DNA of 28,522 bases from positions 1 through 28,522 of the IMG/VR virus record IMGVR_UViG_3300030102_002433; one strand, written 5' to 3'. Under the pieces are notes generated by a model, which was not told the origin of the DNA, did no database searches, and saw only the letters and a program-made list of their open reading frames with translations. This document shows, piece after piece, positions 10,375 to 26,741 of this stretch. Position 1 is the first letter of the stretch. Each line of letters starts with the position of its first letter. Made by a program: the position numbers and the translations under genes. The stretch is from a virus.

Positions 10375-11072
10375 TGTCTAGTTTAATATGTAATCTTCCA
10401 GCTCAACATGTCTGGGTACGAAAAGAATATCTCATGGATCATGAATCAGGTCATGGTGAGTATGTAAAAGGTATTTGGGTTAGTGCTAAATCTATTCCTG
10501 GTCGTGCTTTTTATTTTGAAACGTATCTTCCTGATTATGGTGCTATGTTTGATAAATTACCAATAAGTGCTTTTTTATCAGAACCATCAAAACCTGATCC
10601 TGATATGTCTTTACCTAATTTACAGTTTTGGAATTGTATGGATTACGATGTTACTTGTATATATAAACAATTTATTGGATCGATGGACTTTGAGGCATTT
10701 ACTAGAGATCATGGATTCCAAGCTGGAACCTATATTTGTACATTAGATAATTATCATAGAGATCCAGATACAATAGATTATAGTACAAGTGAACAACCAG
10801 ATGAACATAAATCTTTTAATTTATTAGAATTAAATAATGGGCAATATTGTTTATACCCTAATAATAGAATGAGAATATATGATAACTCATTAACCCCAGA
10901 AAAACCCTTTACACCTGATTTTAAAGTAAGCACAATATATTATCAAGTAGAAAATGGTAACAATACTAGATTAGGAGATACAGATGAATACTACTGGAAA
11001 ACAAAAAAAGAAAACAAAGAAGCTATCACCAAAGCAGATGAAGATAGCAAGAGTCGCTCCTCCAAGAAATAA
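10374..11072 (+). CDS. Conserved marine-phage hypothetical protein
   Basis: This encodes 232 residues, and the start ATG overlaps the preceding TAA. The N-terminal half is rich in aromatic residues with conserved-looking blocks (CNLPAQHVWVRKEYL, KSIPGRAFYFETYLPDYG, LQFWNCMDYDVTC). The last 30 residues are a charged Lys/Glu/Ser tail. I recall near-identical blocks in several ocean phage genomes at the end of the structural module, but no function is attached to them. There is no membrane segment and no known catalytic motif. The distal end overlaps a 26-codon reading frame at 11038. A late-expressed structural or assembly role is only suggested by position. Confidence 0.6.
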   Translation: MSSLICNLPAQHVWVRKEYLMDHESGHGEYVKGIWVSAKSIPGRAFYFETYLPDYGAMFDKLPISAFLSEPSKPDPDMSLPNLQFWNCMDYDVTCIYKQFIGSMDFEAFTRDHGFQAGTYICTLDNYHRDPDTIDYSTSEQPDEHKSFNLLELNNGQYCLYPNNRMRIYDNSLTPEKPFTPDFKVSTIYYQVENGNNTRLGDTDEYYWKTKKENKEAITKADEDSKSRSSKK

Positions 11073-12052: not shown

Positions 12053-12517
12053 CTAAGTAGCTATTTGTTCCTTAACGGCAACATCTTCCATTCTTTTTAT
12101 TAAACGGTTTGCTCTATTAGGAACTTGTTTAGCCCAACGAGAGTCTTCCATTTGGATTGATGCCTCCATCCAATCACCATCTGCGATTGCAGCATTCATT
12201 TTCTTAAAATTAGAAAGACGAGGTCTACCCATATTAAACATCATGTTACAAAGGATTAGTTGTACTTCTTCTGGTAGATCAAGAAAGTTAGGATAGAGTT
12301 TTTTACATTCATCTATCGTTGTATGAATATCTGCTTGAAAACAAGAATTTACTCTATCTTCAGATATTTCTGTGCCTACAGGTTTTTGATATTCTTCATC
12401 CCACTCAGTAACTAAATGTCCAATTCCAAAAGTGGGTAAACCAAGATGGTCTAAATAGATCTCGTATTTACAGCCCTCATCTTGTTCTATTTCTACTCTT
12501 AATCTATTAATATCCAT
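12053..12517 (-). CDS. T4-type lysozyme (GH24 endolysin)
   Basis: This encodes 154 residues that cleave the glycan between N-acetylmuramic acid and N-acetylglucosamine. The T4 lysozyme catalytic arrangement E-x8-D-x5-T is exact: Glu14, Asp23, Thr29, within DEGCKYEIYLDHLGLPTFG. The C-terminal half also follows T4 lysozyme, with MMFNMG, then SRWAKQVPNRANRLI matching the SRWYNQTPNRAKRVI-type block. Length is close to T4 lysozyme (164). There is no signal peptide or signal-anchor segment, so release should depend on a holin such as that at 11547. Unusually it is the last gene of a minus-strand set with a regulator and a helicase, overlapping the regulator by 11 bases. Confidence 0.92.
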   Translation of the reverse strand: MDINRLRVEIEQDEGCKYEIYLDHLGLPTFGIGHLVTEWDEEYQKPVGTEISEDRVNSCFQADIHTTIDECKKLYPNFLDLPEEVQLILCNMMFNMGRPRLSNFKKMNAAIADGDWMEASIQMEDSRWAKQVPNRANRLIKRMEDVAVKEQIAT

Positions 12518-12737
12518 TGCTTACCTCATCATATGATACTCGTTCTATTGGTCTAATATGTAATTCAAATCCCATTTTATTTAAAACTTTATTAAAGTTA
12601 CTCAGGGTAGGTTGCCTCATTTTAGATTCCCAAGTGTATATAGCTATCTCACTAACACCTGTACCATCAGCTAATTCTTTTTGAGTATAGCTTTTATATT
12701 TTCTTATATCTTTAAAATTTTCAATTATATCAGCCAT
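12507..12737 (-). CDS. XRE-family helix-turn-helix regulator
   Basis: This encodes 76 residues. Residues about 16-37 (YTQKELADGTGVSEIAIYTW) form a classic XRE/Cro-type helix-turn-helix, followed by ESKMRQPTLSNFNKVLNKMG, the usual remaining helices. The length matches small Cro-like repressors or antitoxin-like regulators. It overlaps the helicase gene upstream by 13 bases and the lysozyme gene downstream by 11, so the three are almost certainly cotranscribed. Three dyad sequences in the divergent region at 14223-14358 are natural candidate operators, which would make it a self-regulating switch for both directions. The DNA-binding fold is clear; target and lifestyle meaning are inferred. Confidence 0.85.
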   Translation of the reverse strand: MADIIENFKDIRKYKSYTQKELADGTGVSEIAIYTWESKMRQPTLSNFNKVLNKMGFELHIRPIERVSYDEVSNGY

Positions 12738-14179
12738 TTTTTCCAGTCCTCTCCTAAAACTTGGGTAGCTAAGTTTATTTTTTGTCTTAACGATTTTACT
12801 ATAATTTCGTCTACAGTTTTTTCTGCAACTAAATCAATATATGTTACTTTCGATGTTTGACTTATTCTATGTGCTCTATCTTCTGATTGCAATCTTATCT
12901 CAAGATCATAACTATTACTATAATAAATTACTGTATTAGCAGCCGTTAGAGTAAGACCAAAACCTCCAGTTCTTGGTTGTCCTACGAAGAAACGTAAAGT
13001 ATCATCAGTTTGAAACTGTTCTACAATCTGTTGTCTTTCTTCTCCTGGAGTATCACCATAATAACTCCTTACAGAGTTTTCACCATAAATACGACTAAGC
13101 TCTTGTTCTATCTTTTGTATATCGTGTCTATAATTCGCCCATATTAGAGCTTTTCCATTTACTTCTTCTAATATACTTATTAATTCAGATAGTCGATTAT
13201 TATTTATTTCAACAGAAGAGCCATCGTCTGTATTTACAAAACCACAACTTATTTGATGAAGTCTTAATAGTTGTGTTATAACTGCGTTTGCAGTAACTTG
13301 TTCCATATTATCTAATTGGGTAACTGCATTCTTCTTCATATCCTGATAAATCTTTTTTTGCTCAGGGGTTAGTTCTATAACTCTACGAGTATAAATTTTT
13401 TCTGGTAAATCCAAACATTGTTCTTTTGTTACTCTAAAAGAATGAGGCTTTATTAGTTCTGTTAATTCGTCTAAATTACGAAAACCTAATATTTGATTAT
13501 ACTGATGAGATCCTGCAGATCTTTTTATCATATCTGCAAATCTTGCACAAAAAGAATAATACGATCTAAATCCTAATAGTTCTTCACTTAAAAAAGCAAA
13601 CTGCGAATATAGATCTAAAGGTGATTTAGTTATTGGTGAACCTGTTAATATTCTTTTATACTTCGCTAACTTTCCTAACTCTATTGCATTCTTAGTTCTT
13701 TTTGCCCTATGGTTTTTTATTACAGTAGATTCATCTATTGCTAATAATGTGCCTTCGTTATGTATTCCATTTTTGTGATTAAAGATAAATCTTTTGGCTA
13801 TCTCTAAACCTTTCTTAGTAGACAGAGCTTCAATGTTCATTACAAATATTTGTAAATCAAAATCTGGTTTCCATATTGCTTCTATTTCTTTTTTTACTTT
13901 TTCTGTTAATGGTGAAGACCAATATGCCATCTTATGTTCTATATGGTTAGGAAGATGATTAGGTATTTCTTGCCCTACCCAGTTTTTATAAACACCTTTT
14001 GGTGCTAATATAAACGCTGAATTAATTTTTCCAGTGTCATATAGATAAGCTATAGTGTCTATTAAGACTTTCGATTTACCAGTTCCCATATCCATAAGCA
14101 ATGCATATTCATCTTTATTACAAGATTCTTTTAATGCATTAAGCTGATGTTTATACGGTCTAGTTTTGAACGTAAACAA
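12725..14179 (-). CDS. SNF2-type superfamily 2 helicase
   Basis: This encodes 484 residues, two RecA-like domains. Motif I is MDMGTGKSK (GTGKS at 32-36) and motif II is DEST (149-152). Motif III is LTGSP (178-182). Motif V is GGFGLTLTAAN, and motif VI is QSEDRAHR (431-438) with its arginine finger. Such ATP-driven translocases serve as phage replication or recombination helicases. The start is TTG: an AAGGAGA ribosome site sits seven bases upstream and no ATG fits. It is the first gene of the minus-strand unit, opposite the replication operon across the divergent region. Length is short for cellular SNF2 proteins but normal for phage versions. Confidence 0.88.
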   Translation of the reverse strand: MFTFKTRPYKHQLNALKESCNKDEYALLMDMGTGKSKVLIDTIAYLYDTGKINSAFILAPKGVYKNWVGQEIPNHLPNHIEHKMAYWSSPLTEKVKKEIEAIWKPDFDLQIFVMNIEALSTKKGLEIAKRFIFNHKNGIHNEGTLLAIDESTVIKNHRAKRTKNAIELGKLAKYKRILTGSPITKSPLDLYSQFAFLSEELLGFRSYYSFCARFADMIKRSAGSHQYNQILGFRNLDELTELIKPHSFRVTKEQCLDLPEKIYTRRVIELTPEQKKIYQDMKKNAVTQLDNMEQVTANAVITQLLRLHQISCGFVNTDDGSSVEINNNRLSELISILEEVNGKALIWANYRHDIQKIEQELSRIYGENSVRSYYGDTPGEERQQIVEQFQTDDTLRFFVGQPRTGGFGLTLTAANTVIYYSNSYDLEIRLQSEDRAHRISQTSKVTYIDLVAEKTVDEIIVKSLRQKINLATQVLGEDWKKWLI

Positions 14180-25645: not shown

Positions 25646-25651
25646 TATAAT
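25646..25651 (+). promoter_or_regulatory. Candidate -10 box (TATAAT) driving the structured RNA
   Basis: A perfect TATAAT precedes the first stem of the RNA by about seven bases, which would put the transcription start at about 25658, exactly at the base of hairpin 1. The agreement between predicted start and structure is the main support. The -35 region is only T-rich. Confidence 0.5.
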
Positions 25652-25657
25652 ATAAAA

Positions 25658-25816
25658 GTAACATGAGGTGGCTACCTCCAGTCTCATGTTATTTGTTAAA
25701 TGTTGCAACGTACTAGAAGTGGGGCGATAGCATGAGGTTAGACAGAGTTGCTATCGGAATATCAGACCCTCTTTGACTTCGACGGAAGACACTCGGTAAT
25801 GTCCTACTTCTAGTAC
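25658..25816 (+). ncRNA. Structured RNA, new candidate (ncRNA or leader riboswitch)
   Basis: The 230-base gap 25606-25835 has no reading frame but strong RNA structure. Hairpin H1 pairs 25659-25667 with 25683-25691 (nine perfect pairs, three more outside if a wobble is allowed). P1 pairs 25710-25720 with 25806-25816 (eleven perfect pairs, extendable inward to 25724/25802 with wobbles). Inside P1, P2 pairs 25725-25732 with 25749-25756 (eight perfect pairs, 16-base loop). A weaker P3 may pair 25770-25774 with 25785-25789. The whole forms a three-way junction preceded by a hairpin. G+C is visibly higher than in the flanks. A promoter-like TATAAT lies just upstream and a ribosome site 10 bases downstream. 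No family was recognised; it may be a free small RNA or control the gene at 25836. Confidence 0.75.
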
Positions 25817-25835
25817 ACTTTTAGAAAGGAAGAAT

Positions 25836-26081
25836 ATGGCAGATATGTGTTATGAGTTAGAGGCTAAGTATGAAGTAACTTCATGTTATTTATTAGACTT
25901 TAATGTAAAAGATGTTTATGCGTGGTGGATTAAGTATGATACCTTATATGTTCAGCATAAGCTAGGTGAACCTATATCAAGGTATGAGCCTAATTTTCCA
26001 GGTCGTACAAACGACTTTAAACATGCAAAAGAGTTTTATCAAAACTCTGCACCTGTAGAAGAAAACCCATTGAAATATTAG
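25836..26081 (+). CDS. Small hypothetical protein downstream of structured RNA
   Basis: This encodes 81 residues, with GAAAGGA before the ATG. It is rich in Tyr, Trp and acidic residues (VKDVYAWWIKYDTLYVQ), probably a small alpha/beta fold. It is the first gene after the structured RNA at 25658-25816; if that RNA is a riboswitch, this is its direct target. No family recognised. Confidence 0.55.
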   Translation: MADMCYELEAKYEVTSCYLLDFNVKDVYAWWIKYDTLYVQHKLGEPISRYEPNFPGRTNDFKHAKEFYQNSAPVEENPLKY

Positions 26082-26535: not shown

Positions 26536-26741
26536 TGAAGCAAGTAGATCAAGACACTATTACATTAGAATGGTGCACAGAAGATGTTATGGAGCAATGT
26601 CCACTACTAACTAAAGATCAAGCTCGACAAGTATTGCGACGTTGTTTGGAAAAACATGATGCTTGTGTAGGGCTTAGTTGGGATATAATAGAGTGTCATG
26701 CTGACACTCTTTTTCCTTATCGAGGAGGTGATTCTACATGA
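26535..26741 (+). CDS. Small hypothetical protein
   Basis: This encodes 68 residues. ATG 26535 is preferred over an upstream in-frame TTG since it overlaps the stop of the 48-residue gene (TAATG). It has four cysteines, mostly scattered, and a helical block LLTKDQARQVLRRCLEKHD. It overlaps the next gene by four bases. Small phage proteins of this kind often inhibit host enzymes, but nothing in the sequence tells which. Confidence 0.5.
   Translation: MKQVDQDTITLEWCTEDVMEQCPLLTKDQARQVLRRCLEKHDACVGLSWDIIECHADTLFPYRGGDST

Follow-up and report, generated by a model that had tools for sequence, protein, structure and literature searches.

Two described phage systems come closest to the RNA domain reported here. 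In T4 and T2, the messenger leader of gene 32 holds an H-type pseudoknot upstream of the ribosome site, which is the translational operator for gp32 (PMC3014915). In T4, 67 nt that include an A+U-rich stretch separate this pseudoknot from the start codon (PMC3014915). The put RNA of HK022 consists of two stem-loops, ~70 nt, near the early promoter, and suppresses termination through the zinc domain of the polymerase beta' subunit (PMC9378689). The domain we describe, element A, has the T4 gene 32 leader pseudoknot as its nearest known counterpart by form and HK022 put by place, and it lacks defining features of each.

Element A resembles the gene 32 leader in that an H-type pseudoknot precedes a ribosome site; in A, it is formed by a helix (P2) and a loop pairing (PK) with one compensatory change, in what the promoter and ribosome site suggest is a phage messenger leader. 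The A pseudoknot differs in lying inside a long helix (P1) that also encloses a GACG hairpin, and A ends ~7 bases before the ribosome site. Nor is A tied to one gene: the genes that follow it encode unrelated small proteins, and no single-strand-binding protein gene was found among them. With put, A shares its placement, as a structured RNA directly past a phage promoter that could act on any operon, but the architecture differs, since A measures ~107 nt and has a closing helix and a pseudoknot, and the terminators show no pattern in favor of antitermination. With element A, the DNA phages of the ocean, from which few structured RNAs are known, gain an RNA family that is undescribed and has covariation support.

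A structured gap between promoter and ribosome site

The window, by which we mean the whole 28,522-nucleotide stretch of DNA that was analyzed, represents 28.5 kb of a tailed-phage genome, and a longer contig, of 51 kb, is identical to it over the polymerase and leader region. The DNA polymerase of the window shares 58% identity with the enzyme of phage 023Pt_psg01 and ~51% with those of the Pelagibacter phages HTVC023P and HTVC027P; blastn found no meaningful close match to the window among cultured phages. We retrieved 28 phage loci with a related polymerase as a near-relative set, and a wider polymerase search gave 40 loci. The gap that holds the folded RNA lies ~0.7 kb past the polymerase gene, with two small genes on one side of it and, on the other, several more small genes in a row on the same strand.

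All window features below are on the plus strand. A -10 box, TATAAT (25646 to 25651), lies inside the block TTTACTATAAT, with no good -35 box upstream. The transcription start predicted from it falls at the foot of the first stem, near 25658, as the first-pass annotation had placed it. A TACTATA(A/T)T block precedes the same leader in loci L001 to L015 and also stands before other operons of these phages. At the other end of the gap, the ribosome-binding site AGAAAGGAAG (25823 to 25832) is a sequence that recurs ahead of many genes of the window phage, as seen in blastn. Both signals are found in the sequence, which bears out the placement originally proposed for the RNA, just past a promoter and just ahead of a ribosome site. 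Several other operons of the relatives likewise open with a short hairpin located at the predicted transcription start (L016 at 9574, L017 at 9406, L007 at 9510, and L012 at 4448).

The three stems initially described in the gap are all present. The leading stem (TAACATGAG/CTCATGTTA) has 9 pairs, or 10 counting one G-U; in the long stem (GTACTAGAAGT/ACTTCTAGTAC), 11 pairs are perfect and wobble brings the total to 14 (25710 to 25723 with 25803 to 25816); and the internal stem (CGATAGCA/TGCTATCG) has 8 pairs. Folding of positions 25655 to 25835 gives -57.1 kcal/mol (z, -3.7) and folding of 25708 to 25819 gives a z of -3.9, and in neither case was any of 200 shuffles as stable. A 110-nt stretch at element A has the lowest energy among 3790 stretches scanned on both strands of the window; corrected for G+C, it ranks only among the top five. 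Since G+C-corrected stretches elsewhere are equally good, and the reverse strand of the gap likewise folds well, folding alone is not proof, and it is covariation that provides it.

Element A, a pseudoknotted RNA family

The gap had been read as one structured RNA. The structure holds up, but not as a single unit: there are two domains, a 5'-terminal hairpin (H1) and element A, and the second contains a pseudoknot that had been overlooked. Element A (25710 to 25816) has homologues in L002, in L003 and L004, and, in divergent form, in L138 and L179. P1 (25710 to 25723 with 25803 to 25816) closes P2 (25725 to 25731 with 25750 to 25756), the hairpin P3 (25775 to 25790), and the pseudoknot, in which AGAG of the P2 loop (25744 to 25747) pairs with CUCU (25769 to 25772). 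The P3 stem (25775 to 25780 with 25785 to 25790) carries a GACG tetraloop (25781 to 25784).

Among the close copies, which are 80 to 93% identical overall (L002 carries the A region at 93% over 237 bases; L003 and L004 carry it at 80%), variation is too small for covariation testing. We built a covariance model from three distinct sequences (window, L002, and L003/L004), with the pseudoknot not included, and scanned the 40 loci with it. There was one match, at L138 13207 to 13313, with 42.2 bits and an E-value of 2.6e-8, though the E-values of this model are rough. L138 represents another phage group, its polymerase being 55% identical to that of the window, and its copy lies in a 244-base gap (13147 to 13390), ~20 to 30 bases past a TACAAT box and with a ribosome site downstream. 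A second contig, L179, has the same A sequence as L138, and when viral and bacterial genomes were scanned by pattern, only these two proved to be true new copies. A weak match in L113 (15.5 bits) was rejected as a copy for its many unpaired positions. Each genome with A has one copy.

When L138 is included, 96.7% of the cells in the alignment pair, against 39 to 51% when the partner strand is slid. Twelve of the 31 pairs are changed on both sides (7 of 14 in P1; 2 in P2, where 100% of cells are paired; 2 in P3; and 1 in the pseudoknot) and 0 of 500 shuffles match this, with all 12 double changes coming from one divergent sequence, L138, in an alignment fitted to the model. In the pseudoknot, AGAG with CUCU in the window becomes AGUG with CACU in L138, and this is the only one of its four pairs that varies. 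The GACG loop of P3, invariant in all four distinct A sequences, is unchanged in L138, as are two other motifs, GG.UA of the P2 loop and AAUA...CC of the joining strand. The homologues thus carry compensatory changes in their stems, and the structured RNA claimed at first pass is real. We conclude that element A is a real, new, and conserved phage RNA family, with four distinct sequences so far. Judged from the alignment, a distant phage preserves its fold with most of the sequence replaced.

The family also matches nothing in Rfam, in agreement with the initial view that the RNA fits no known class. In Rfam 15, the best scores for the window were 14.3 bits (gathering score, 41.2) and 11.2 bits (gathering score, 57.6), so none reached the gathering score; the L138 and L003 copies had no score near threshold, and scans of A and of elements B and C, described below, matched nothing.

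Hairpin H1 (25658 to 25692; stem 25658 to 25667 with 25683 to 25692) stands at the 5' end of the predicted transcript. Across five sequences, 98% of its cells are paired, against 33 to 58% in slid controls; 4 of 10 pairs vary and 2 are changed on both sides, in a sample small enough that 137 of 500 shuffles reach this count. Its loop holds an invariant UACCUC (25673 to 25678), to which GAGGU, from the P2 loop of either A or B (AUGAGGUU, 25732 to 25739 in the window), is complementary. All leaders with H1 hold the AUGAGGUU motif once, and L015 and L033, which lack H1, show CUAGGUU instead. This complementarity makes a contact between the two domains, UACCUC of the H1 loop with AUGAGGUU, possible, in cases too few to prove it.

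Different RNA modules at one site

In near relatives, the promoter block TTTACTATAAT and the ribosome site AGAAAGGAAG (TTTACTATATT in L007 and L008) flank the gap, and what lies between them varies. The slot contains H1 followed by A in the window and L002, H1, then A, then B in L003 and L004, H1 followed by B in L005 and L006, and B alone in L015 and L033. It is filled by a long structured module, C, in L007 and L008 and by a short hairpin in L012 and L049, and holds nothing in L010 and L011.

The genes behind the slot vary as well. Gene X (25836 to 26081; 81 aa) is the first gene past the RNA in the window and follows the slot in most near relatives. L002 has lost X and keeps the RNA, so that the next gene, Y, comes first; in L138 and L179, A is followed by an unrelated gene. 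Because the downstream gene differs among the window, L002, and L138, the RNA is not a private regulator of one gene. None of the window genes that follow the RNA has a Pfam or PHROG match. In L002 (8852 to 8875), the deletion of X is clean and apparently arose by recombination between repeated ribosome-site sequences (AGAAAGGAAGAA).

Element B is a second undescribed structured RNA, a three-way junction with the core AAAACA(C/A)UUGCAUACCGA in its P3. Copies lie at L003 5330 to 5412, L006 4148 to 4230, L005 8890 to 8972, L015 10525 to 10607, and L026 13005 to 13090, and on the minus strand at L033 6743 to 6825 and L076 about 675 to 800. The homologues in L026 and L076 occupy another place in the genome, ahead of other genes. 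The core is retained (AAAAUAC in L005 and L006), while P1, P2, and P3 are replaced yet still paired in L026 and L076. Element B resembles A in its site, promoter, and ribosome site, in its independence of the gene behind it, and, in some copies, in the AUGAGGUU of its P2 loop, but it is a three-way junction without a pseudoknot of the A type. Treating A and B as one family was rejected, as they have only AUGAGGUU in common and their models fail to match each other's elements. Reading frames starting ATGAGGTT were considered as possible coding sequence in both and stop or break in relatives, in L003 for A and in L026 and L076 for B; since the frames are not maintained, we take both elements to be RNA.

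Element C (L007 9514 to 9790, and the same place in L008) opens with a hairpin at +1, continues with ~200 nt of strong structure, and is unrelated to A and B. The L007 copy includes a 54-aa frame, which in L008 carries a one-base shift. Apparently non-coding leaders of 400 to 480 nt end in B at L026 12630 to 13109 and over the ~400 to 450 nt before the B of L076, and each of these, with its B, is possibly one large RNA.

Possible roles of the leader

How might such an RNA act? The reading we favor, with about even confidence, is that A is a gene-independent operon leader acting in cis, most likely bound by a protein. The gap would encode the untranslated leader for a set of small accessory genes that form an operon; transcription would begin from a host-type promoter at H1, whose probable role is to protect the 5' end from decay. 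Element A would fold as an H-type pseudoknot (P2 and PK) plus the GACG hairpin P3 within the closing helix P1 and would act on its own transcript whichever gene comes next. Its putative binder, from host or phage, may be a ribonuclease, a ribosomal protein, a phage regulator, or RNA polymerase, and the bound element would set the stability, elongation, or translation of the operon. We observe the fold of A, its conservation, its placement from promoter to ribosome site, and its independence from the downstream gene. From these data we infer transcription from the TATAAT promoter, action in cis, and protein binding. No intrinsic terminator was found between A and the ribosome site, which makes A most likely part of the operon message. 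Its conservation across unrelated downstream genes suggests that it probably acts on the whole transcript via a protein, or in trans after processing. Counting against a cis leader, L010 and L011 have gene X behind the same promoter without a structured leader, so the leader is dispensable for X.

The gene independence of A, by which it is conserved whatever lies downstream, fits a trans-acting RNA, the main rival, equally well. In that case A would be a separate non-coding RNA, freed by ribonuclease cleavage, that binds RNA polymerase or serves as a decoy for a host enzyme or defence. Its single copy per genome agrees with this, and so does the fact that other structured modules take its place in relatives, as expected of arms-race loci. 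Nevertheless, in the window group A is always sense and always directly before the ribosome site, no terminator stands behind it, and Rfam offers no decoy partner, so we hold this reading to be somewhat doubtful. The first-pass suggestion of a free small RNA or polymerase decoy lost ground on the same missing terminator and on the cmscan result, which gave no 6S or 6S-like match; 6S-type decoys are free RNAs with a central bubble in a long hairpin. A broader proposal, that the slot is a locus of swappable and autonomous RNA cassettes (A, B, C, A+B, or none) for host takeover or counter-defence, seems to us unlikely. If the exchange of modules does reflect conflict with the host, it would represent an RNA-based takeover or counter-defence overlooked by protein-centred scans. 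A leader RNA can, at any rate, persist while the gene behind it and the sequences of its helices change.

The pseudoknot with its conserved loops (GG.UA, AAUA..CC, and GACG) and the ~7 bases from A to the ribosome site would suit a small-molecule-binding riboswitch that controls translation of the next gene, as had also been suggested from the sequence. However, an association with one pathway, looked for in the downstream genes of the three groups, is absent: these genes are unrelated among the phages, and none behind A is metabolic. No alternative fold concealing the ribosome site was seen, and Rfam gave no riboswitch match; a riboswitch is accordingly improbable. An RNA antiterminator like HK022 put, allowing passage of terminators in a long early operon, would serve any downstream gene, and A is placed as putL is, just past the promoter (PMC9378689). 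The operon also contains one strong terminator-like site, a hairpin AGAGTGTCATGCTGACACTCT-TTTTT at 26690 to 26710 within a coding frame. Yet the B phages L006 and L015 have no such internal site, the A+B phage L004 offers only, 2.8 kb downstream, a hairpin of 14 pairs whose T tail is weak, and the architecture of A is unlike the two stem-loops of put. Antitermination via internal terminators was set aside, as the terminator survey shows no pattern, and we rate a put-like role as quite improbable.

The near-perfect 14-bp terminal arms of A, and its presence or absence at one site among relatives, recall a DNA-level element, either a replication origin or a small mobile element bounded by inverted repeats. 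We find this very hard to credit: most arm pairs differ in L138 yet still pair, unlike a repeat recognised by a transposase; G-U pairing and a pseudoknot suit RNA; and multiple copies are not seen in any one genome. A self-cleaving ribozyme is fainter still as a prospect. The hairpin, loop pseudoknot, and second hairpin of A have what we take to be a loosely pistol-like arrangement, but Rfam gave no ribozyme family, pistol included, at a meaningful score, and a conserved cleavage core is not recognised. The cis-acting leader thus remains the reading that we favor.

Other features of these phages may also be of interest. More apparently non-coding structured gaps occur in accessory regions of the relatives (L017 10466 to 10746, L042 9794 to 10201, and L043 11320 to 11687), none with an Rfam match. 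L019 has a tRNA gene at 10467 to 10552 (61 bits), apparently of the leucine type given its long variable arm. In the window, where the genome is otherwise plus-strand, three minus-strand genes (lysozyme-like, HTH-like, and helicase) lie at 12053 to 14179, and the GC skew is reversed there.
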